The position numbers and the translations under genes were made by a program. 37,267 bases of DNA from Halomonas sp. (lineage in GTDB: Bacteria; Pseudomonadota; Gammaproteobacteria; Pseudomonadales; Halomonadaceae). The stretch is taken from the NCBI RefSeq assembly GCF_007692655.1, contig NZ_REBQ01000119.1, positions 1 to 37,267 on the forward strand, given 5' to 3'. The notes under the pieces are model-generated. The model worked only from the letters and a program-made list of their open reading frames with translations. It did no database searches and was not told where the DNA came from. Below are positions 11,185-20,903 of the stretch, piece after piece. How positions within the stretch are numbered: position 1 is the first letter of the stretch; every line of letters begins with the position of its first letter.

Positions 11185-12021
11185 ATGCCAATGTTGAGCG
11201 TGGGAACGCAAAACGGTACGCCCGTTGAGCTTTATTACGAAATGCACGGGGCAGGTAAGCCAGTGGTGCTGATTCATGGTTGGCCACTAAGCGGTCGCTC
11301 ATGGGAAAAGCAGGTGCCAGCGCTCGTTGAGGCGGGCTATAAAGTGATCACTTATGATCGCCGTGGTTTTGGTTGGTCTACTCAACCTTATGGCGGCTTC
11401 GACTACGATACTTTAGCAACTGACCTTAAGAAGCTGATTGAAACACTTGATCTGAACGATGTGACCCTGGTGGGTTTTTCCATGGGGGGCGGTGAAGTGG
11501 CACGTTATCTGTCAACTTACGGCACTGGGCGAGCCAGCAAAGCGGTATTTGCAGCAGCCGTGCCGCCTTACCTATATAAAGCTGACGATAACCCTGAAGG
11601 GGGTCTGGATGACGCCACGGTTAATCAGTTCTTGGAGGGGGTGAAAAGCGACCGTATTGCGTTTCTGGAAGATTTCACCAAAAATTTCTTTTCTGCAGGT
11701 GAGCACAGCGATTTAATTAGCGAACCGAGCCGCCGGTATCATCGTGATATTGCCGCTTTCGCCTCACCTAAAGCTACCTATGACTGCATCAAGGCGTTTA
11801 GCTATACCGATTTCCGCAAAGACCTGCCCAATATCGATATTCCTACCCTGGTATTGCACGGTGATTCAGATGGCATTGTGCCGTTTGAAGTAAGCGGTAA
11901 GCGTGCCCAGGAGCTTCTTCCCAATGCACAAACGGAATTAATCAAAGGCGGACCGCACGGCTTAAATGCCACGCACGCTGACGAGTTTAATCGGGCATTG
12001 ATTAAGTTTCTGGATAGCTGA
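11185..12021 (+). CDS. Alpha/beta hydrolase, non-haem haloperoxidase/perhydrolase type
   Basis: A 278-aa cytoplasmic serine hydrolase. The nucleophile elbow is GFSMGG with Ser99; the acid is Asp229 in HGDSDGIVPFE and the base His258 in GGPHGLNATH, in the spacing of the cofactor-free chloroperoxidase/esterase subfamily. The oxyanion segment IHGWPLSGRSWEKQ and the strand-turn YDRRGFGWSTQP are also typical of that subfamily. These enzymes are esterases with side perhydrolase activity on short carboxylic acids; the true substrate is unknown. It stands alone and ends at a hairpin shared with nirD. Confidence 0.9.
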   Translation: MPMLSVGTQNGTPVELYYEMHGAGKPVVLIHGWPLSGRSWEKQVPALVEAGYKVITYDRRGFGWSTQPYGGFDYDTLATDLKKLIETLDLNDVTLVGFSMGGGEVARYLSTYGTGRASKAVFAAAVPPYLYKADDNPEGGLDDATVNQFLEGVKSDRIAFLEDFTKNFFSAGEHSDLISEPSRRYHRDIAAFASPKATYDCIKAFSYTDFRKDLPNIDIPTLVLHGDSDGIVPFEVSGKRAQELLPNAQTELIKGGPHGLNATHADEFNRALIKFLDS

Positions 12022-12054
12022 ATATCCCCGCTATTTTTTGATGCAGACGTAACG

Positions 12055-12080
12055 AATCGCCGCCTACCCAGGCGGCGATT
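12055..12080. terminator. Convergent hairpin between the hydrolase gene and nirD
   Basis: Perfect 10-bp stem AATCGCCGCC / GGCGGCGATT with loop TACCCA, between two convergent genes. T-runs are poor on both sides. Confidence 0.65.
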
Positions 12081-12094
12081 AACATCGCTAAATA

Positions 12095-12502
12095 CTACCC
12101 CTCAATCCACACCTCATCGCCCTTGAACTCGATCTTCCAGGTGCGCAGCTTGACGTCTTCGTCCTCTAAGCACTGGCCGTCTTCGAGGCGGAAGTGCTGC
12201 TTGTAGATCGGCGAGGCAACCACCGCTGCACCTTTTAGATCGCCGATAATGCCTCGTGCAATGACGTGTGCGTTAGAGAAAGGGTCAAAGTGATCAAGGG
12301 CGAAAAGCTCACTGTTCAGCCCTTTTGAATGTTGACTCGGAAGATAAAAGATCGCCACTTGTGCTGGGCCCTCGGCGGTTTCGAGCCAGGCGGCGACGCC
12401 AGAAAATTCCACCAAATCAGCTTTGGTACATACTTTTTGCCATGCCATCGTGTGTTGAGACCCTGTTGTATCCATCTCGTTTTTCAATGCAGTTGCGGTC
12501 AT
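12095..12502 (-). CDS. nirD: Nitrite reductase (NAD(P)H) small subunit
   Basis: A 135-aa Rieske-fold subunit of the cytoplasmic NAD(P)H nitrite reductase that makes ammonium. The core AHVIARGIIGDLKGAAVVAS, then PIYKQHFRLEDGQCLED, follows the NirD pattern. The Cys and His pairs that hold a 2Fe-2S cluster in true Rieske proteins are absent, as is usual for NirD. The C-terminus (VKLRTWKIEFKGDEVWIEG) is also family-typical. It lies 48 bp after nirB as the last gene of the leftward operon. GAGGTG precedes the ATG. The first ~18 residues are an unaligned extension. Confidence 0.92.
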   Translation of the reverse strand: MTATALKNEMDTTGSQHTMAWQKVCTKADLVEFSGVAAWLETAEGPAQVAIFYLPSQHSKGLNSELFALDHFDPFSNAHVIARGIIGDLKGAAVVASPIYKQHFRLEDGQCLEDEDVKLRTWKIEFKGDEVWIEG

Positions 12503-12550: not shown

Positions 12551-15058
12551 CTAGGCAGGCCTTGGCTGGCCGCGTTCCGAGGTCATGATGATCGAAGGAT
12601 CAGGGCGTTCGTCGTTAACAAAGCTGCGGAAGCGCTTAAGCTTTTCTGGATCGCTGATGGCATCCGCCCACTCGCACTGGTAGGTGTCGACCACGGTTTG
12701 CATTTGGCGATCTAGCTCGTCATTGATACCCAGACTGTCCTCCAGAATCACTTCTTTGAGATAGTCCAATCCGCCTTCGAGGTTTTCCCGCCATACCGAG
12801 GTGCGCTGCAGGCGGTCAGCGGTGCGTACATAGAACATTAAGAAGCGATCAATGGTGCGGTAGAGCTGTTCGTCGTCGAGATCGGTGGCAAACAGTTCGG
12901 CATGGCGAGGGCGCATGCCACCGTTACCGCAGACGTAGAGGTTCCAGCCGTTTTCGGTGGCGATGATGCCGATATCTTTGCTCTGAGCTTCGGCGCACTC
13001 GCGGGTACAGCCGGAAACACCAAATTTTATTTTGTGCGGTGAACGTAGGCCCTTGTAGCGGTTCTCTAACCATATCGCCATACCAACGCTGTCCTGTACG
13101 CCATAACGGCACCAGGTGCTGCCCACACAGGATTTCACGGTACGCAGCGATTTACCGTAGGCGTGACCCGTCTCGAAACCTGCGGCAATCAGCTCGCTCC
13201 AGATATCCGGCAGGTCTTCCAAGCGCGCGCCGAATAGGTCGATACGCTGGCCGCCGGTGACTTTGGAGTAGAGGCTGTATTTTTTAGCCACTTCGCCCAG
13301 AGCAATCAACTTGTCTGGGGTGATTTCACCGCCTGCTACGCGGGGCACTACCGAGTAAGTGCCGTTTTTCTGCATGTTGGCCATGAAGGTATCGTTAGTA
13401 TCCTGCAAGGGGATATGCGCCGCGTCGGTGATCGGCTCATTGAAGCAGGAGGCCAGAATGGACGCCACGGCGGGCTTGCAGATATCGCAACCAAGATGGT
13501 GGGTGTCGGCATTGCCGTGTTTTTCGATCAGTTCGCTAAAGGTTTTAATGCCTTCTACACGCACAATGTCGTAAAGCTCCTGGCGGGTATAAGCGAAGTG
13601 CTCGCAAATCGATTTGTCGACCTCGACACCGCGGGCTTCCAGCTCGTGATCCACTACGCTTTTGAGTAGTGCGGTACAGCCGCCGCAGCCAGTACTGGCT
13701 TTGGTGGCACTTTTGACGCCACCCAGGTCTACCGCTCCCGCATCAATAGTGGCGCAAATAGCGCCTTTAGTAACGTTATGGCAGGAGCAGATCATCGCCG
13801 TTTCTGGCAGCGCATCGGGGCCCAGTGCGGGGGCCGCGCCGCTGCTTTGCGGCAGAATCAACGAGGCGGGTTCTGCAGGTAACTCAATACTGTTGGAGTA
13901 GTACTGCAGCAGGGTATCGTAGACGCTGTTATCGCCCACCAGCATGGCGCCGAGCAGTTTTTTCCCGTCACTGGAAACCACCAGCTTGCGGTACTCCTGC
14001 TTGATCGGGTCTAGGTAGCGGAACATGCGGGCGCCGGGGTTCTGGTTGCCATGGGCGTCGCCAATGGAGCCCACATCCACGCCCAGTAGTTTGAGCTTGG
14101 TGCTCATGTCGGCGCCGCTAAAGTGGGTGTCGCCACCTGTCAGCGTCGAAAACGCTGCTTTGGCCATTTGATAACCGGGTGCCACTAGGCCGAAAATGCT
14201 CTGGTTCCACAGCGCTACTTCGCCAATCGCGAGGATGGCCGGGTCGCTGGTTTGGCACTGGTCATCCACCACCACGCCGCCACGTTCGCCCACTTCCAGG
14301 CCGCAGCCACGGGCTAATTCGTCGCGGGGACGAATACCTGCCGAGAAGACGATGAGATCGGTTTCAAGCACTTTATCGTCTTGAAAGACCATCCGGTGAC
14401 GGCTTGTCTCGCCATCTTCAATGCGTTGGGTGGCTCGCTCGGTGAGCACTTGTACACCCAACTCTTCAATTTTTTCCCGCAGCAGGCCGCCGCCTTCGCT
14501 GTCTACCTGCATGGGCATCAAGCGCGATGCAAATTCGATGACCGCGGTATCTAAATTTAAGCCGCGCAGGGCGTTAGCGGCTTCCAAACCAAGCAGTCCA
14601 CCGCCCACAACCACCCCAGTGGTGGCGTTTTCAGCGGCGGCTTGTATGGCGTCTAAATCGTCAAGGGTGCGATACACCAGACAGCCTTCGCGGTCGTTAC
14701 CAGGAATCGGCGGTACAAAGGGGTAGGAACCTGTGGCTAACACGAGCCGGTCATAAGGGTAACGCCCCTGGTCGGTGATGACTTCGTGCGTGCTACGGTC
14801 GATCTCAATAACGCATTCTGAACTGCGTAATGTGATGCCGCTGGTCGCGTAATAATCCGCATCGCAAAGCGCCAAAGAGTCGGCATTTCGGCCACTAAAG
14901 TATTCCGATAGGTGCACGCGGTCGTAAGCGCGGTGGCGCTCTTCACCAAAAACAGTGACCTGATACTGTGTTAGCGCTTCGCTTTCGACCAGTTGCTCGA
15001 CCAAGTGGTGACCGACCATACCGTTACCAATAATAATAAGCTGCTGTTGGGTAGCCAT
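12551..15058 (-). CDS. nirB: Nitrite reductase (NAD(P)H) large subunit, siroheme and FAD
   Basis: An 835-aa assimilatory nitrite reductase catalysing the six-electron reduction of nitrite to ammonium. Domains in order: FAD/NAD(P)H oxidoreductase (1 to ~400, IIGNGMVGHH and VVVGGGLLGLEAANAL); BFD-like 2Fe-2S domain (~420-470, CSCHNV... and CGGCTALL); sulfite/nitrite reductase half-domains (~540-770). The siroheme/4Fe-4S ligands are present as C-x5-C (Cys644, Cys650) and C-x3-C (Cys684, Cys688) in CVGSTWC and CTREC. Its start lies directly after the stop of the preceding diaphorase gene (TAG-ATG). All catalytic motifs look intact. Confidence 0.96.
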   Translation of the reverse strand: MATQQQLIIIGNGMVGHHLVEQLVESEALTQYQVTVFGEERHRAYDRVHLSEYFSGRNADSLALCDADYYATSGITLRSSECVIEIDRSTHEVITDQGRYPYDRLVLATGSYPFVPPIPGNDREGCLVYRTLDDLDAIQAAAENATTGVVVGGGLLGLEAANALRGLNLDTAVIEFASRLMPMQVDSEGGGLLREKIEELGVQVLTERATQRIEDGETSRHRMVFQDDKVLETDLIVFSAGIRPRDELARGCGLEVGERGGVVVDDQCQTSDPAILAIGEVALWNQSIFGLVAPGYQMAKAAFSTLTGGDTHFSGADMSTKLKLLGVDVGSIGDAHGNQNPGARMFRYLDPIKQEYRKLVVSSDGKKLLGAMLVGDNSVYDTLLQYYSNSIELPAEPASLILPQSSGAAPALGPDALPETAMICSCHNVTKGAICATIDAGAVDLGGVKSATKASTGCGGCTALLKSVVDHELEARGVEVDKSICEHFAYTRQELYDIVRVEGIKTFSELIEKHGNADTHHLGCDICKPAVASILASCFNEPITDAAHIPLQDTNDTFMANMQKNGTYSVVPRVAGGEITPDKLIALGEVAKKYSLYSKVTGGQRIDLFGARLEDLPDIWSELIAAGFETGHAYGKSLRTVKSCVGSTWCRYGVQDSVGMAIWLENRYKGLRSPHKIKFGVSGCTRECAEAQSKDIGIIATENGWNLYVCGNGGMRPRHAELFATDLDDEQLYRTIDRFLMFYVRTADRLQRTSVWRENLEGGLDYLKEVILEDSLGINDELDRQMQTVVDTYQCEWADAISDPEKLKRFRSFVNDERPDPSIIMTSERGQPRPA

Positions 15059-16375
15059 CTAAGCCGCCTCCGACGTTGGATGAGAAGAGTTTGCAGAAGA
15101 AACTGGGGTGTTTTCAGATGCCGCTTCGCGAAGAACCTCTACATCGGCCGCGCCAAACAGAAGCGCTTGGCGGCAGTCGTTAAGGTTGTTGCCCGCCAGT
15201 GCTTGTGCAAAGTACCAGGGGCCAAACGCGGTATCGCCGTACAGCACGGCACCTTCAATCTGTCCGTCGCGAAGTAGTAAACGACGGTAGTCGCCCAGCT
15301 CAGCGTCGTGATAGCTCAGCACTTCGTGCGCATTGGTCGCTTCGGTGGGGCCAAAGGCGTAGAGCGCAATGCCGCTAATTTTCAGTTTGGTCGCGCTAGG
15401 GGCGTCGGCGTAGCCATGAGTGGCCGCGCCGCAGAGGGTGGCAGCAAGTATGTCTACCTGGCGCCAAATCGGTTCTACTAACCCGTAAGTGTTGCCATCA
15501 AACTGGCAACACTCGCCAAGGGCGGAAATTGCCGGGTCAGACGTGGTCAGAAACTCATCCACGACGATGGCGTGTTCGATTGAAAGTCCGGCGCGGTGGG
15601 CCAGTTCAATATTAGGGGTAATGCCTGCGGCGACGATCACGCTGCTGGCGGGAATGCGACGACCATCCTTGAGGATGGCTTCACCCACTTGGCCAGGTTC
15701 GCCTTCGGCTAGATGCTGTAACTGCGCGCCGGTGATGATATTCAATCCACGCTGCGTGAGTTCGTCTTCAAGCAGGTGCGAAGCGGTGACATCCAACTGG
15801 CGATTCATTAGCCGTTCGCTACGCTGGAGCACGCTAACGCTCATACTACTATTGCGCTTGCGTAACCCCTCTGCGGCTTCCAGGCCTAACAGACCGCCAC
15901 CAATCACCACCACGTCGCCACCGCTCAGGGCAATTGCCTCAAGCGCGGCGGCGTCTTGTAAATCGCGAAAGCCGTGTACGCCGTTAAGCTCAATGCCGGG
16001 AACGCTGGGCATGGCTGGACGAGAGCCAGTGGCGATGACAAGGCGATCGTACTGAAGCGAGCGTCCTTTGTCGGTGGTTAAGGCTTTGCTGTCGCGATCA
16101 AGGATCTCGACTTTTTCGCCGAGCACCAGGGTGATGCCCTGTTCTGCATACCATGCCTCATCGCGTAAAGTGAGGGCATCATGTTGCATCTCACCGGCAA
16201 GCAGCGGCGATAGCAAAATGCGGTTGTAGGCAGGCGTTGGTTCAGCGCCAATGACCGTGATCTGCTGAGCGCGTTCTGGGTATTTTACCAGCGCCTCAAT
16301 CAGACGGTGGCTAGCCATACCGTTGCCAATAATTACCAGATGGTCGTTGGGTGAGCACCGGGAAGTGGTTTCCAT
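15059..16375 (-). CDS. FAD/NAD(P)H diaphorase of the nitrate-assimilation operon (NasB/NasC-type electron-transfer subunit)
   Basis: A 438-aa flavoprotein resembling the N-terminal half of the adjacent NirB (IIGNGMASHRLIEALVK versus IIGNGMVGHHLVEQLVE). It has an N-terminal FAD site and a second GGGLLGLEAAEGL dinucleotide site for NAD(P)H. No siroheme domain and no Cys cluster follow. In Klebsiella and Bacillus a similar protein passes electrons from NADH to the NasA-type catalytic subunit, and NasA here lacks a flavin domain, so I infer this is its partner. The ATG at 16375 is chosen because GAGGAG precedes it by 7 bases; the longer frame (from 16435) would start inside the leader terminator. 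First gene of the nir operon. Confidence 0.83.
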   Translation of the reverse strand: METTSRCSPNDHLVIIGNGMASHRLIEALVKYPERAQQITVIGAEPTPAYNRILLSPLLAGEMQHDALTLRDEAWYAEQGITLVLGEKVEILDRDSKALTTDKGRSLQYDRLVIATGSRPAMPSVPGIELNGVHGFRDLQDAAALEAIALSGGDVVVIGGGLLGLEAAEGLRKRNSSMSVSVLQRSERLMNRQLDVTASHLLEDELTQRGLNIITGAQLQHLAEGEPGQVGEAILKDGRRIPASSVIVAAGITPNIELAHRAGLSIEHAIVVDEFLTTSDPAISALGECCQFDGNTYGLVEPIWRQVDILAATLCGAATHGYADAPSATKLKISGIALYAFGPTEATNAHEVLSYHDAELGDYRRLLLRDGQIEGAVLYGDTAFGPWYFAQALAGNNLNDCRQALLFGAADVEVLREAASENTPVSSANSSHPTSEAA

Positions 16376-16417: not shown

Positions 16418-16466
16418 AAAAAACGCCCCTGACACACCTTCTTTGCAGAAAGCGAATCAGGGGCGT
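16418..16466 (-). terminator. Leader (attenuator) terminator of the nir operon
   Basis: Reverse-strand stem ACGCCCCTGA / TCAGGGGCGT (10 bp) encloses an inner 5-bp stem CTTTC / GAAGG with a hexaloop, and is followed by six T. It lies 40 bp before the first start codon and after the predicted promoter, so it must be read through for expression. Its 5' arm is shared with the P2 antiterminator hairpin. Confidence 0.9.
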
Positions 16467-16527
16467 CGTTGCCCGATAGCGTCGTTTTAAATCCTTATTA
16501 AAAACCAGGACAACCGCCATTGGCTGC
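16456..16527 (-). promoter_or_regulatory. ANTAR-type two-hairpin antiterminator RNA, nir operon leader
   Basis: P1 (16510-16527) has stem GCAGCC / GGTTGT (6 bp, with G-U pairs) and hexaloop AATGGC. P2 (16456-16477) has 5' arm ATCGGGC, hexaloop AACGAC and 3' arm GCCC-GAT with a 2-base bulge. Both loops carry A at position 1 and G at position 4, the known recognition rule for ANTAR proteins (NasR, NasT, EutV). The P2 3' arm overlaps the 5' arm of the leader terminator, so P2 and terminator are mutually exclusive. I infer nitrate/nitrite-induced antitermination by a NasR or NasT protein encoded elsewhere. Confidence 0.82.
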
Positions 16528-16555
16528 CAGCTATTTAAAACCTTGCCTTGTATCA

Positions 16556-16571
16556 AGCAAAGAATCAGCCA
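16556..16571 (-). promoter_or_regulatory. Sigma-54 -24/-12 promoter of the nir operon
   Basis: The reverse strand reads TGGCTGATTCTTTGCT, matching TGGCAC-N5-TTGCW with GG and GC exactly 10 bases apart; only the AC of the -24 block differs. Transcription should start near 16545, about 18 bases before hairpin P1, which fits an untranslated leader of about 170 nt. Confidence 0.7.
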
Positions 16572-16627
16572 ACTTGCCATGCAGCATTATTAATTTAAAT
16601 AACTTCAACTTCTTAGCTTGATAATAC

Positions 16628-16676: not shown

Positions 16677-16804
16677 AAAGAGGGTGTGATTGCACTCTCA
16701 AGTACCATTTGCGCCGTGATGAGTGGTAAATAAATGGTTGCTGGAGAATTTGTTTATTTTTAACTGACTGTTTTTAAGAAATAAATACGAGATATGGCGG
16801 TTGG

Positions 16805-16820
16805 CGGCTTGGCTTTTGCA
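16805..16820 (+). promoter_or_regulatory. Possible sigma-54 promoter towards nasA
   Basis: CGGCTTGGCTTTTGCA has GG and GC 10 bases apart and a perfect TTGCA -12 block, but a poor -24 block. It would give a nasA leader of about 365 nt including the 15-bp repeats. Weaker than the nir promoter. Confidence 0.3.
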
Positions 16821-16870
16821 GCATTAGTAGTATCAGGCGAGTAACAAGTTATAACCGCTTATATTTAGTC

Positions 16871-16919
16871 TATGCCTAGAAAGGCTATCTCTAGAAAGGC
16901 TATGTCTAGTAAGGCTATG
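16871..16919. repeat. 15-bp tandem repeat, about 3.3 copies
   Basis: Consecutive units TATGCCTAGAAAGGC, TATCTCTAGAAAGGC, TATGTCTAGTAAGGC, then TATGG. It lies between the two divergent promoters/leaders of the nitrate genes. Function unknown. Confidence 0.85.
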
Positions 16920-17054: not shown

Positions 17055-17091
17055 GCACCACTGAAGGTGCGCTGTGGCAACGACGTCCAGC
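17055..17091 (+). promoter_or_regulatory. ANTAR-type two-hairpin antiterminator RNA, nasA leader
   Basis: P1 (17055-17070): stem GCACC / GGTGC, hexaloop ACTGAA. P2 (17071-17091): 5' arm GCTG-T-GGC with one bulged T, hexaloop AACGAC, 3' arm GTCCAGC. Both loops have A1 and G4, and the P2 loop is identical to that of the nir leader. P1 and P2 are directly adjacent. The P2 3' arm overlaps the 5' arm of the following terminator. Same inferred mechanism as the nir leader: ligand-activated ANTAR protein binds P1-P2 and prevents terminator folding. Confidence 0.84.
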
Positions 17092-17147
17092 CCTCTTCTC
17101 TCTATGCATTCAATTGCATATGGGGACAAGGGACTGGGCGTTTTTTT
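17083..17147 (+). terminator. Leader (attenuator) terminator of nasA
   Basis: ACGTCCAGCCCT pairs with AGGGACTGGGCGT over 12 pairs (one bulged A, one G-U), followed by seven T. The loop contains a further small hairpin (ATGCA / TGCAT). It ends 50 bp before the nasA start, so readthrough is needed for nasA expression. Confidence 0.88.
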
Positions 17148-17197
17148 GTGCGGTATTTGTAGGCGGTTAGGAATGGCCCACGACCCGAGGAGATGTT

Positions 17198-20047
17198 ATG
17201 CAAGGGGCAGAAGCGGGACACCAGACTGAAGCAGAGCAGCAGTCCACAACGACGCAGCAGGCTAAAACAACATGCCCCTACTGTGGCGTTGGCTGCGGTT
17301 TGACGGCGACCGTTGAGGCGGGGACGCTATGTGCTGTCGAGGGAGATCGTGAGCATCCAGCGAACTATGGCCGACTGTGCGTTAAGGGTAGCGCCTTGCA
17401 TGAAACCTTAGGTCAGCATGACCGACTCACTCAGACAAGGGTAGACGGGGTAGACGTTTCCTGGGAAGAAGCGCTAGCAGCCACTGCCCAGCGTCTCAAT
17501 ACCCTGCGAAAGCAGCACGGCAATCATACGGTAGCCGGTTATCTTTCTGGGCAACTACTGACCGAAGACTACTATGTTGCTAACAAGTTGTTTAAAGGCT
17601 TTTTAGGCACGCCCCATTTAGATACTAACTCCCGACTCTGCATGGCTTCTGCGGTGGCGGGTTACAAGCGGGCCTTTGGCGCGGATGCGGTACCGTGCAA
17701 CTACGAAGATTTAGAAGAAGCTGAGCTGGTGGTATTGGTGGGCTCCAACCTCGCATGGAATCACCCGGTACTTTACCAGCGCATCAAAATTGCCAAAGAG
17801 CGCAACCCGCTGATGCGTCTGGTAGTGATTGACCCGCGCGTCACCGATAGCTGTGAAATCGCCGATCTTTATTTGGGTATAAAGCCGGGTAGCGATGCGT
17901 ACCTGTTTAATGGCCTGCTGGCATGGATGGCAAAGCGTCGTAAGCTTGATACCCTCTACCTTGAGCGTCATACCGAGGGCTTTGAGGAGGCTTTAATGGC
18001 CGCTCAGCAAACGGCGGGCTCAGTGGCGGAGGTGGCGGCTGCCTGCGATATCGATCCTGAACGCCTGGAAACCTTCTACTATTGGTTTGCCAGTCAGTTG
18101 CATGTGGTCACGCTTTATTCCCAAGGGGTTAATCAATCCTCCAGCGGTACCGATAAGTGTAATGCCATCATTAACTGCCATTTGGCTGGCGGCAAAATAG
18201 GCTTGCCAGGCGCTGGTCCGTTTTCGATCACCGGTCAACCTAACGCCATGGGGGGGCGTGAGGTGGGGGGACTCGCCAACCAGTTAGCCGCGCATATGGA
18301 TTACCATACTCCTGGCGCGCTCGATCTAGTCAGCCGTTTTTGGACCACTGATAGCCTAACGCCTAGCCTGCCGGATAGCCCTGGCTATAAAGCCGTGGAG
18401 CTGTTTGAAGCCATTGAGCGCGGCGAGGTGACCGCGCTATGGGTGATGGCCACCAATCCGGCGATTAGTCTTCCCGATGCCGCTAAAGTGCGAGCCGCAC
18501 TGGAGAAATGCCCGCTGGTCATTGTTTCCGAGTGCGCCGCCCACACCGACTTGCTGCCCTATGCGGATATCGTATTGCCCGCCTCAGGCTGGTCAGAAAA
18601 AGACGGTACGGTTACCAATTCTGAGCGCTGCATTTCACGTCAGCGGGGCATGTTGCCGCCCCCCGGTGAAGCACGTCACGACTGGTGGATTATCTGTGAA
18701 GTCGCTAAACGCCTGGGGTTTGCTGAGGCGTTTAACTACTCGCATCCCTGGGAAATCTTTGATGAGCATGCTCGGCTTTCAGGATTTGAAAACGGTCTCA
18801 ACAGCAATCTCAAAAACATTCTCGAAAGCACTCTCCAAAACACTCTCCAAAACACAGCCGACTCTGCTAGCCCGCGGCGACTGTTTGATATTTCGGGGCT
18901 CATTGGCTTGGGTCGTGAAGGATATGATGCCCTGGCGCCTATCCAGTGGCCGGTCACTGCGCAGGCGCCTAACGGCACTGCTCGGCTGTTTGAGAATGGT
19001 GAGTTTGCCACCCCAAATGGCCGCGCTAAGCTGCTAGCGATTCACCCTCAGGGGCCTGAGCAAATGCTCAGCACAGCCTATCCGTTGAGGTTAAATACTG
19101 GGCGAATTCGCGATCAGTGGCACACCATGACGCGTACGGCTCGTGCGCCACGTTTAATGAATCATCGTGCTGAACCCTTTATAGAAGTGCATCCCGACGA
19201 TGCGCTGACGACCGGTGTAAAAGATCAAGAGCTCGCCACGCTAAGCGCTATGTCAGGAGAGTTTCGTGCTCGCGTGCGGGTAACCAATGCCCAGCGGCGT
19301 GGTGAAGTCTTTGTACCCATTCACTGGACCGACTGTTTTACAAAACAGGCGAGAAGCAGTGCCCTAATTGCTGGTATTATTGACCCGTTTTCTGGTCAAC
19401 CGGAATCTAAGCATGGGGCAGTCGCGCTCGCGCCGTTGCCCGCCGCATGGCAGGCGACCTTGCTAGTCGCTGACGGTTTGGTAAACGATGAGGCTGATGG
19501 GGGGGCTGAGCCGTGGCGCGTAAGCGACTACTGGACGCGGATTCCTATGCGTGGTTGCCAGCGCTGGCAGTTGGCTAACACTCAGCAGGTTGAAGATTGG
19601 CTGCTTCGGCTGGAAGAGTGGTTGCCGGTGCCTGCCTCTTTGTGGTCCCAGGACCTTTCGAGCGGGCGGCTTCGCGCTGCGGCCGTAGAACACGGCAAAG
19701 TGCGTTGGTGGTTAATGGTGGGTCCGCCCAGTGAATTGCCGGGGCTCGCTTGGTTGGAAGCACGTTTCAATGAAGCTGCGCTAAGTGCCACCCATCGTCG
19801 CCGTTTATTAGCGGGCTGTGACGATGGCGCTGTGGATACTGGGTCTGTGGTGTGCAGCTGCCACCAAGTGGGTCAAACCACTATTATCCATGCCATCCGA
19901 GAGGGTGACATTAGTGTAGAAGCGCTGGGTGCTAGGCTCGCTTGCGGTACCCAATGTGGTAGTTGTATTCCAGAATTAAAATCCCTGATTGAAGAGGAGC
20001 GGCCAAATGCGCGCGCTAAGCAAACATCTAACCCAGAAGTGGCCTGA
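17198..20047 (+). CDS. nasA: Assimilatory nitrate reductase, molybdopterin catalytic subunit
   Basis: A 949-aa cytoplasmic bis-MGD enzyme reducing nitrate to nitrite. The 4Fe-4S cluster is held by Cys26, Cys29, Cys33 and Cys61 (CPYCGVGC ... CVKG). The Mo ligand should be Cys148 (NSRLCMASAV). Molybdopterin oxidoreductase and dinucleotide-binding domains follow (GQPNAMGGREVGG, NTGRIRDQWHTMTRTA). A C-terminal BFD-like 2Fe-2S domain has Cys886, Cys888, Cys920 and Cys923, an entry point for electrons from the diaphorase at 15059-16375. GAGGAG precedes the ATG. Residues 534-553 are an unusual four-residue repeat (LxxT/N) encoded by five 12-bp DNA repeats, probably a surface loop insertion. No Tat or Sec signal. 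Confidence 0.96.
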   Translation: MQGAEAGHQTEAEQQSTTTQQAKTTCPYCGVGCGLTATVEAGTLCAVEGDREHPANYGRLCVKGSALHETLGQHDRLTQTRVDGVDVSWEEALAATAQRLNTLRKQHGNHTVAGYLSGQLLTEDYYVANKLFKGFLGTPHLDTNSRLCMASAVAGYKRAFGADAVPCNYEDLEEAELVVLVGSNLAWNHPVLYQRIKIAKERNPLMRLVVIDPRVTDSCEIADLYLGIKPGSDAYLFNGLLAWMAKRRKLDTLYLERHTEGFEEALMAAQQTAGSVAEVAAACDIDPERLETFYYWFASQLHVVTLYSQGVNQSSSGTDKCNAIINCHLAGGKIGLPGAGPFSITGQPNAMGGREVGGLANQLAAHMDYHTPGALDLVSRFWTTDSLTPSLPDSPGYKAVELFEAIERGEVTALWVMATNPAISLPDAAKVRAALEKCPLVIVSECAAHTDLLPYADIVLPASGWSEKDGTVTNSERCISRQRGMLPPPGEARHDWWIICEVAKRLGFAEAFNYSHPWEIFDEHARLSGFENGLNSNLKNILESTLQNTLQNTADSASPRRLFDISGLIGLGREGYDALAPIQWPVTAQAPNGTARLFENGEFATPNGRAKLLAIHPQGPEQMLSTAYPLRLNTGRIRDQWHTMTRTARAPRLMNHRAEPFIEVHPDDALTTGVKDQELATLSAMSGEFRARVRVTNAQRRGEVFVPIHWTDCFTKQARSSALIAGIIDPFSGQPESKHGAVALAPLPAAWQATLLVADGLVNDEADGGAEPWRVSDYWTRIPMRGCQRWQLANTQQVEDWLLRLEEWLPVPASLWSQDLSSGRLRAAAVEHGKVRWWLMVGPPSELPGLAWLEARFNEAALSATHRRRLLAGCDDGAVDTGSVVCSCHQVGQTTIIHAIREGDISVEALGARLACGTQCGSCIPELKSLIEEERPNARAKQTSNPEVA
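18797..18856 (+). repeat. Five 12-bp tandem repeats inside nasA
   Basis: Units: CTCAACAGCAAT, CTCAAAAACATT, CTCGAAAGCACT, CTCCAAAACACT, CTCCAAAACACA. They are in frame and encode LNSN-LKNI-LEST-LQNT-LQNT. Copy-number change would add or remove four residues without a frameshift. Confidence 0.9.
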
Positions 20048-20903
20048 AGCCTTTGTGCGCCTTGGTCAGCGGGTGTTAGCGCCTTTTGGCCGTGAAACCT
20101 CCTCCTCATTGCGCCTGCCTTTAAGCGGTCAATGCCAGCCGGGTCACGTGTATTTAGTGGGCGCAGGCAGCGGCGATGTGGAGCTATTAACGCTTAAGGC
20201 GGCACGGCTTCTCATGCAGGCGGACGCGGTAGTGTATGACCGCTTGGTAGGTGACGACGTACTGGCGCTAATACCACGGGGAACCGAACGCTATTACGTC
20301 GGCAAAGCACGTGGCCATCACAGCGTTCCCCAAGCAGAAATTGGCGCACTGATGGTCAAGCTGGCTAACGCAGGTAAGTCGGTGGTGCGTTTAAAAGGCG
20401 GCGACCCCGGTGTGTTTGGACGCATGGGGGAGGAGCTGGCTGCTTTGGCTGCTGCTCATGTGCCTGCGACCATTGTGCCGGGCATTACCGCTGCATCAGC
20501 AGCGGCGGCCTGCATGGGAATTCCGTTAACTGACCGTGGCCATGCCCAACAACTACGCTTTGTCACTGCGCAACTTTGCCGCGAAGACGGCACCCCGGAT
20601 TGGGCGTCGCTAGCGCGTAAGGACGAAACCCTGGTGTTCTATATGGGGCTTTCCAAGGTAGACGCGATCTGTCATGGCTTACGACAAGCGGGCCTGCCGG
20701 ATGACTGGCCCATTATGCTGGTAGCCAATGCCAGCCAGCCTGAACAGCAATCACTGGTGGGAACCTTGGCAGATATGCCTGAGCAGTTAGCCGCTCAGCC
20801 ACTGCCTTCGCCGTGCTTGATTGTGGTGGGTAGCGTAGTGAGCATGGTGCCCATGGCCGCGGTGCGAGATAACAAGGAAGTCGTCACCGAGAGTTTGTTG
20901 TAG
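20007..20903 (+). CDS. cobA: Uroporphyrinogen-III C-methyltransferase (SUMT)
   Basis: A 298-aa SAM-dependent methyltransferase making precorrin-2, the siroheme precursor. The family signature VYLVGAGSGDVELLTLKA starts near residue 49; further hallmarks are VYDRLV, VRLKGGDPGVFGR and PGITAASAAAA. The CysG oxidase/ferrochelatase domain is absent, so another enzyme must complete siroheme. The N-terminal ~45 residues are an unaligned basic extension. The start ATG (20007) follows GAGGAG and lies 41 bp inside the end of nasA, indicating translational coupling; an upstream TTG frame start lacks a ribosome binding site. Its place in the operon ties it to NirB, the siroheme user of the divergent operon. 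Confidence 0.93.
   Translation: MRALSKHLTQKWPEAFVRLGQRVLAPFGRETSSSLRLPLSGQCQPGHVYLVGAGSGDVELLTLKAARLLMQADAVVYDRLVGDDVLALIPRGTERYYVGKARGHHSVPQAEIGALMVKLANAGKSVVRLKGGDPGVFGRMGEELAALAAAHVPATIVPGITAASAAAACMGIPLTDRGHAQQLRFVTAQLCREDGTPDWASLARKDETLVFYMGLSKVDAICHGLRQAGLPDDWPIMLVANASQPEQQSLVGTLADMPEQLAAQPLPSPCLIVVGSVVSMVPMAAVRDNKEVVTESLL

Follow-up and report, generated by a model that had tools for sequence, protein, structure and literature searches.

A putative ANTAR attenuator in the nasA leader of a Halomonas strain, with a divergent nir partner and unequally conserved hairpin loops

The stretch of DNA analysed here (the window, 37,267 nucleotides of a Halomonas sp. contig) very probably carries, at positions 17055-17147 of its plus strand, an ANTAR attenuator forming the regulatory end of the 5' leader of nasA; it would be controlled by a NIT-ANTAR protein of the NasR type, respond to nitrate and share this control with the divergent nir operon. 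Both hairpins of such an attenuator, an overlapping terminator, conservation, covariation and the co-occurrence of leader and ANTAR protein were found. As an ANTAR leader the nasA site is ordinary; the unequal constraint on its first hairpin makes it a useful variant.

The published rules for ANTAR targets are a dual hexaloop, A1 and G4 in the loops, a C-G closing pair, and mutual exclusion of P2 and terminator (PMC3369931, PMC7496416, PMC3369936). In the nasA leader, sequence and fold place hairpin P1 at 17055-17070 (plus strand), reading GCACC[ACTGAA]GGTGC, with 5 bp and the hexaloop ACTGAA (17060-17065) closed by a C-G pair. Hairpin P2, the putative antiterminator (17071-17091, plus strand), was placed in the same way and abuts P1. 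It reads GCTG-T-GGC[AACGAC]GTC-CAGC, that is, a stem of 4 bp, a bulge of one nucleotide (T) and 3 bp, 7 bp in total, and a hexaloop AACGAC (17079-17084) that is also closed by a C-G pair. The spacing of the two hairpins is 0 nt between the full stems and 5 nt when counted to the 3-bp core of P2. The 49-nt piece that covers P1 and P2 folds into exactly both hairpins at -17.0 kcal/mol, and this structure makes up 97.6% of the ensemble; the z value of the piece alone is only -1.9, and 7 of 200 shuffles fold equally well.

An intrinsic terminator at 17082-17147 (plus strand), identified by fold and scan, overlaps P2 and ends in a T7 tail (17141-17147). When the downstream part is included (17070-17152) the terminator wins, at -39.1 kcal/mol with a z value of -5.1 and no shuffle of 200 folding as well. 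Its outer stem has 13 pairs by fold (9 and 4, separated by a single bulged base) and 12 pairs by the scan script with one mismatch allowed. P2 and terminator are mutually exclusive, because the 3' side of P2 and the final three bases of its loop are part of the terminator's 5' arm (17082-17094). The earlier sequence-only reading had described two adjacent hairpins with A1 and G4 in both loops, a P2 overlapping a 12-bp terminator with T7, and a P2 loop with flanks nearly identical in nasA and nir. Sequence and fold agree with the first description, fold and scan with the second, and the third is borne out by a 10-mer, GGCAACGACG, common to both P2 hairpins.

The nir leader lies on the minus strand of the same intergenic region. 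Its P1 (16509-16528; sequence, fold and scan) has 7 bp and the hexaloop AATGGC, its P2 (16461-16474) follows after 34 nt with 4 bp and the hexaloop AACGAC, and the terminator overlapping P2 (16418-16467) has a T6 tail at 16418-16423. Positions 16413-16483 fold at -38.7 kcal/mol, with a z value of -6.4. All four loops of the window, P1 and P2 of nasA and nir, have A1, G4 and the C-G closing pair.

On the plus strand the leader is followed by nasA (17198-20047), the assimilatory nitrate reductase catalytic subunit, with Pfam molybdopterin domains and a BFD [2Fe-2S] domain. The name is based on these domains, the neighbouring genes and NCBIfam matches, all of those shown being below cut-off, with formate dehydrogenase alpha as the best and NasC as the second. 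Downstream lies a uroporphyrinogen-III C-methyltransferase gene for siroheme synthesis (19989-20903, plus strand; TIGR01469 over cut-off), whose reading frame as listed overlaps the end of nasA. The nir operon is divergent from nasA and comprises, all on the minus strand, an NAD(P)H/FAD-dependent oxidoreductase as its first gene (15059-16375; Pfam Pyr_redox_2 and Rubredoxin_C), nirB for the nitrite reductase large subunit (12551-15058; TIGR02374 and NF011565 over cut-off) and a nirD-like small subunit of the Rieske_2 type (12095-12502; PF13806). The frame of the oxidoreductase is listed from 16435, and its likely ATG, read from the sequence, is at 16375. Among named loci, the best NasA matches are in Vreelandella, Halomonas and close relatives, in line with an origin of the window in the Halomonadaceae.

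Both strands of the window were scanned for C[ANNGNN]G hairpins that overlap a terminator. The sole matches were the nasA and nir sites, and at each of them another hairpin of this type lies upstream. Against these two full sites, 100 dinucleotide shuffles of the window gave a mean of 0.03 and a maximum of 1, and none of 2000 shuffles of the intergenic region yielded a full site. A generic terminator scan (loop 3-8) listed neither the nasA nor the nir terminator. The covariance-model scan that had been suggested as a check gave a divided result. A model built on 21 nir leaders (R1) recovered the nasA site in its own genome at E 0.004, ranked below two other matches, one of them a plain terminator and the other, on contig C85, a locus without an ANTAR P2 (judged by locus, the matched stretch not being displayed). 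Loci were examined for 10 of the 11 R1 matches: the nasA site, the nir site with a further match on its second strand, and seven more loci without an ANTAR P2, among which L154 was judged from its locus and not from the matched stretch. This limited search with a nir-based model found no third leader in the genome, and no leader was found on the nasR contig (20,000 of 20,005 bases searched). Rfam gave no gathering-level match. At a permissive threshold it gave five weak ones, including narK RNA at nir P1 with 14.9 bits against a gathering value of 43.2; a literature search for this family found no paper.

Eighty NasA loci of named genome records were fetched. L060 was incomplete and left out, and the other 79 together with the window made up 80 intergenic regions, in 77 of which a nasA leader and in 72 a nir leader was found. 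The script, with a motif including A1/G4, identified 69 of the nasA leaders, and eight were assigned by reading (L016, L022, L031, L045, L046, L050, L056, L080). Regions without a nasA leader were L069 (masked bases), L078 and L079. A nir leader was not found in L039, L045, L049, L052, L055, L057, L078 and L079, with the searched stretch set from an estimated start; all of these except L078 and L079, six of the eight, belong to genomes with an ANTAR protein. Of the 80 genomes with fetched loci, 78 encode an ANTAR protein, and the two genomes without one (L078, L079) have neither leader. Among readable nasA regions in ANTAR-protein genomes, none is without a P2-like hairpin at the terminator, the eight assigned by reading included. 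Both L078 and L079 are Kushneria, where nasA and nir are present, the leaders were not found and neither ANTAR nor NIT is matched in the genome, so that switch and regulator have apparently been lost together.

For the conservation analysis we used the clade defined by the bulged P2, consisting of the window and 39 relatives, whose 40 nasA leaders comprise 34 distinct sequences. The two nasA stems are kept: 99.2% of the cells are paired in the distinct sequences (98.7% for P1, 99.6% for P2), compared with at most 48.3% for slid versions. The covariation score of the stems lies above all 500 shuffles; taken singly, the three pairs with changes on both sides were reached by 47 and the five further pair types by 259 of 500 shuffles. 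One base pair of P2 is C-G in 17 and G-C in the other 17 of the 34 sequences.

The loops are constrained unequally. In P2 the loop sequence is AACG followed by A or G and then C, and A1 and G4 are present in 40/40 clade leaders; over all 77 nasA leaders G4 is found in 77 and A1 in 75, a conservation that is partly by construction because P2 was searched with a motif including A1/G4. In L022 and L031 the P2 loop is GACGAC, with G1 in place of A1. The P1 loop has both A1 and G4 in only four of 40 clade leaders (the window, L019, L020 and L041), where base chance would give 2.5. G4 by itself is present in 28 of the 29 six-base loops (28/40 clade leaders), with L015 counted despite two broken pairs in its P1 stem. 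In the remaining 11 of the 40 the conserved arms are separated not by a six-base loop but by 5 or fewer, 8 or 11 nt. The group of closest sequence has the P1 loops GATGAA, GACGAA, GAAGAA or GGCGAA; elsewhere in the clade the loop is GGTGCA, TTTGAC, TTTAAC, AAGGGT, AAAGTG, AAAGTT or CAGGGT. The nasA leaders of L021, L023, L024 and L040 would fall outside the dual-hexaloop definition. A1 and G4 in both loops is thus not supported as a conserved rule of these leaders: in relatives, where the sequence-only reading had proposed to check them, the two bases are conserved in P2 and not in P1.

In nir the first hairpin is better kept, with A1, G4 and the C-G closing pair in 39/40 clade loci; 36 of these have at least 4 bp (L008 included) and three have 3 bp (L016, L042, L043), and L015 is without it. 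A quick NasA tree (LG+G4, no bootstrap, 80 rows, L060 left out, L053 with its 3-bp stem set to canonical P1 by eye) implies at least 10 changes in the canonical P1 state of the nasA leaders; the sister rows of the window, L004 and L040, are without it and have 11-nt P1 loops. A P1 loop that keeps G4 and leaves A1 free fits the EutV structure, in which G4 is contacted and A1 is not (PMC8934654). The P1 of the window is probably still read, through G4. Across the lineage nasA P1 is predicted to be the weaker partner, with A1 free and a quarter of the leaders lacking a six-base loop behind a kept stem. Possibly, and here our doubt somewhat outweighs our confidence, the lineage would read P1 by G4 alone, leaders without a six-base P1 loop would antiterminate through P2 only, and one protein would also serve nir, whose two loops are intact but spaced more widely than EutV tolerated.

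Relocation of P1, as an A1/G4 hexaloop between the sigma-54-type element and P1, was considered for the 40 clade leaders and not accepted as a general explanation. Stem counting gave candidates in 9/40 leaders against 3.9 expected, and the five C-G-closed ones (L004, L018, L021, L023, L024) all belong to the 12 leaders whose P1 has no G4 hexaloop. Judged by pairing probability, L018 (0.74) and L059 (0.98) alone were convincing. These 12 leaders ranked higher (p 0.005 in a rank test, with nearly all values below 0.15 and the sequences related), and a Fisher test at 0.3 gave p 0.5. The linkers were also searched for a third hairpin. The arms GCGT...ACGC occur in many nir linkers, but no such hairpin is claimed for the window, whose own linker has a z value of +0.23. 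The mean z value was -1.24 for 55 distinct nir linkers, a set that includes L008 (P2 mis-assigned by the script) and distant weak P1 assignments in Chromohalobacter, and -0.69 for 20 nasA linkers.

Promoter candidates were scored against what we take to be the sigma-54 -24/-12 consensus. The predicted element of nasA (GCGGCTTGGCTTTTGCA; 16804-16820, plus strand) lies 260 nt upstream of P2 and has 8/13 consensus positions, and that of nir (TTGGCTGATTCTTTGCT; 16556-16572, minus strand) has 10/13, four positions being required by the scan in each case. The pattern GG-N8-TTGC is present 119-260 nt upstream of P2 in 40/40 clade leaders, where shuffles averaged 2.3 and never exceeded 6, and the promoter scan found no sigma-70-like promoter in the region. 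For these two reasons the nasA transcript is predicted to start, probably, well upstream of P1, and the predicted promoters argue against a start after the terminator. In some other Halomonas loci a near-consensus sigma-54 site directly precedes P1. The nasA leaders of Vreelandella relatives have a conserved block around CTCATTGC about 110-150 nt before P2, close behind the sigma-54-type element (for example L019, L021 and L004), and its sequence is kept even without a good stem (L029, L040). The predicted nasA leader of the window also holds a 15-bp tandem repeat of 3.3 copies (16870-16919), where the aligned near relatives are gapped.

In the mechanism we propose, without nitrate or nitrite the RNA would fold into the terminator and transcription would stop at T7 before nasA. 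With nitrate, the NIT-ANTAR protein of the genome (NasR type) would bind the hexaloop or hexaloops and P2 (17071-17091) would be held; because the held P2 occupies the 5' arm of the terminator, polymerase would continue through nasA and the siroheme methyltransferase gene. The divergent nir leader (16418-16528) would be controlled by this NasR-type protein as well, which would explain how the nitrate reductase operon and the FAD oxidoreductase-nirB-nirD operon can be switched together. The binder (NasR), the signal (nitrate), the outcome (antitermination) and the sigma-54 promoters are predictions from sequence.

In the genome, which is 90.6% complete, two ANTAR proteins were found, one NIT-ANTAR (NasR type) and one AmiR-like, and NasT (receiver-type ANTAR) was not found. 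The AmiR-like protein is on contig C171 (L002), beside an AmiC-like binding protein. The NIT-ANTAR protein, a frame of 482 aa, is on contig C105, away from the window and beside a transporter-like gene (read by eye). It matches PF08376 (4e-50), PF03861 (1e-19) and Klebsiella oxytoca NasR (4akk, E 6e-52), and it aligns with chain 6wsh, presumably EutV, onto which the published contact residues fall after a uniform shift of 2. Arg142, Lys143, Lys149, Glu160, Tyr164, Arg168 and Met172 are identical, Lys147 is replaced by Arg, and Asn173, Arg175 and Arg177 differ; the roles of these residues were taken from PMC8934654. NIT and ANTAR are joined in one frame in 38/39 clade relatives, the genome of L004 having them on different contigs (the NIT search covered 48 of the 80 genomes, including all 39 clade relatives). 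On account of the NasR match, the contact residues and this arrangement in relatives, the NasR-type protein, and not NasT, is the likely binder of the nasA leader. The earlier idea of one protein serving two divergent ANTAR attenuators thus stands as to both leaders and one likely shared binder, and NasT, which had been named as that protein, is not supported, NasR being the likelier one.

A different reading of the window is that NasR reads the P2 hexaloop only, with P1 as a structural spacer or stacking helix whose A1 and G4 are coincidence. We consider it unlikely, while several results speak for it: A1 with G4 in P1 is near its chance frequency (4/40 against 2.5), 11/40 leaders are without a six-base loop while the stem is kept and abuts P2, the canonical state changes repeatedly on the tree, no alternative upstream A1/G4 hexaloop is seen by pairing probability save in L018 and L059, and a single hexaloop is the minimal binding motif defined by Walshe et al. 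(PMC8934654). It is opposed by the A1, G4 and C-G closing pair of the window's own P1, by the retention of G4, the base EutV stacks on, in 28/29 six-base loops, and by the report that P1 deletion or loop change abolished or reduced eutP induction (PMC3369931).

Each of the remaining alternatives appears far less probable. That another ANTAR protein works the nasA leader, either the AmiR-like one or a NasT absent from the draft sequence, is very unlikely; the incompleteness of the genome, the presence of the AmiR-like protein and four genomes among other Halomonadaceae that bear ANTAR without any NIT match (G105, G113, G121, G123) would allow it, but in 4/4 genomes of the same genus that are 100% complete just one ANTAR protein is encoded, with the length of a NIT-ANTAR protein, and the one-frame NIT-ANTAR arrangement of the relatives points the same way. 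NtrC-type sites are GCAC...GTGC palindromes, which the half-sites of P1 resemble, and GCACC/GGTGC could accordingly be a DNA operator, for example NtrC-like, with only P2 and the terminator as RNA elements. We give this little credence, as the arms stand at different distances in relatives (with loops of 5 or fewer up to 11 nt), hardly tolerable for a DNA dimer site, the pairs vary in an RNA-like manner that includes G-U (8/19 cells in one pair), and the arms lie directly against P2 with loop G4 kept. Equally improbable is a fixed, unregulated partial terminator with chance hairpins upstream, which the moderate z value of the P1-P2 piece alone would permit; it is contradicted by the lack of any such site in 2000 intergenic shuffles, by the conservation of loops and stems and by the absence of leaders where the ANTAR protein is absent.

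The nasA and nir leaders were compared with the closest known systems. One of these is nasF/NasR of K. oxytoca, which shares the NIT-ANTAR regulator, the nitrate-assimilation operon and two C-G-closed hexaloop hairpins with A1 and G4, P2 overlapping an intrinsic terminator (PMC7496416, PMC3369936); the NasR SELEX motif likewise has A1, G4 and the C-G closing pair (PMC7496416). K. oxytoca has one leader for one operon, whereas here two divergent leaders serve separate reductase operons with nasR elsewhere, and, unlike in nasF, P1 abuts a bulged 7-bp P2 and its A1 is not conserved in relatives. Enterococcus faecalis EutV resembles the present case in the P1/P2 dual hexaloop, the exclusion of P2 and terminator and several leaders per protein (PMC3369931, PMC8934654). 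EutV reads G4 and can bind one hexaloop by itself; for antitermination both loops were reportedly required, and lengthening the linker by 20 nt abolished it (PMC8934654). Here, in contrast, P1 of nasA has a drifting loop in relatives, and in the window P1 and P2 of nir are 34 nt apart. The P1-P2 spacing of E. faecalis eut leaders is 5-12 nt (PMC3369931) and the published range is 2-25 nt (PMC8164766), against 0 or 5 nt for nasA by counting mode, which agrees with short spacing, and 34 nt for nir, which lies beyond the range.

NasT/NasS of Paracoccus denitrificans (PMC3795266) and Bradyrhizobium diazoefficiens (PMC6759348) also provide nitrate-responsive ANTAR control; their sensor is NasS plus NasT, whereas here there is a NIT domain and NasT was not found in the 90.6%-complete genome. 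Halomonas genomes were reported to have NasR (NIT-ANTAR) and NasST, almost mutually exclusively (PMC8014003), in passages that do not describe leader RNAs. The sequence-only reading had noted that most described nas systems have one such leader for one long operon. The arrangement in the window is not new in kind: several leaders and operons under one ANTAR protein are already in print (PMC3369931), and NasT-type hairpins were predicted at the nirA and narK leaders of B. diazoefficiens (PMC6759348). A search of open-access literature found no paper describing the nasA/nir leader pair. What is added here is the divergent pair, retained in most of the regions studied, whose two leaders, probably served by one protein, depart from the EutV rules in opposite ways: a drifting P1 loop in the nasA leaders of relatives and a long linker with intact loops in nir, both in one intergenic region.

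Walshe et al. (2022) reported that an EutV dimer binds only one hexaloop at any time; they suggested that P1 is bound first and P2 next, and asked for studies of how important single-hexaloop targets are (PMC8934654). The P1 drift in relatives could test what ANTAR switches really need. If P1 were read by G4 alone and P2 sufficed where P1 has no six-base loop, the holding of P2 would be separable from recruitment by P1 and the dual-hexaloop rule would be broken in nature.

Two further arrangements were observed among the relatives. In L062, L070, L071, L074 and L075, three of them Salinicola, a third ANTAR-like leader (P2 AACGGC and terminator) lies on the minus strand near 11256-12198, about 2.5-3.5 kb downstream of nasA. 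The nir leaders of L022, L027, L031 and L076 have three successive A1/G4 hexaloop hairpins before the terminator, with the loops ATCGCG, then AAAGGC, AATGGT or AATGGC, then ACAGAC.
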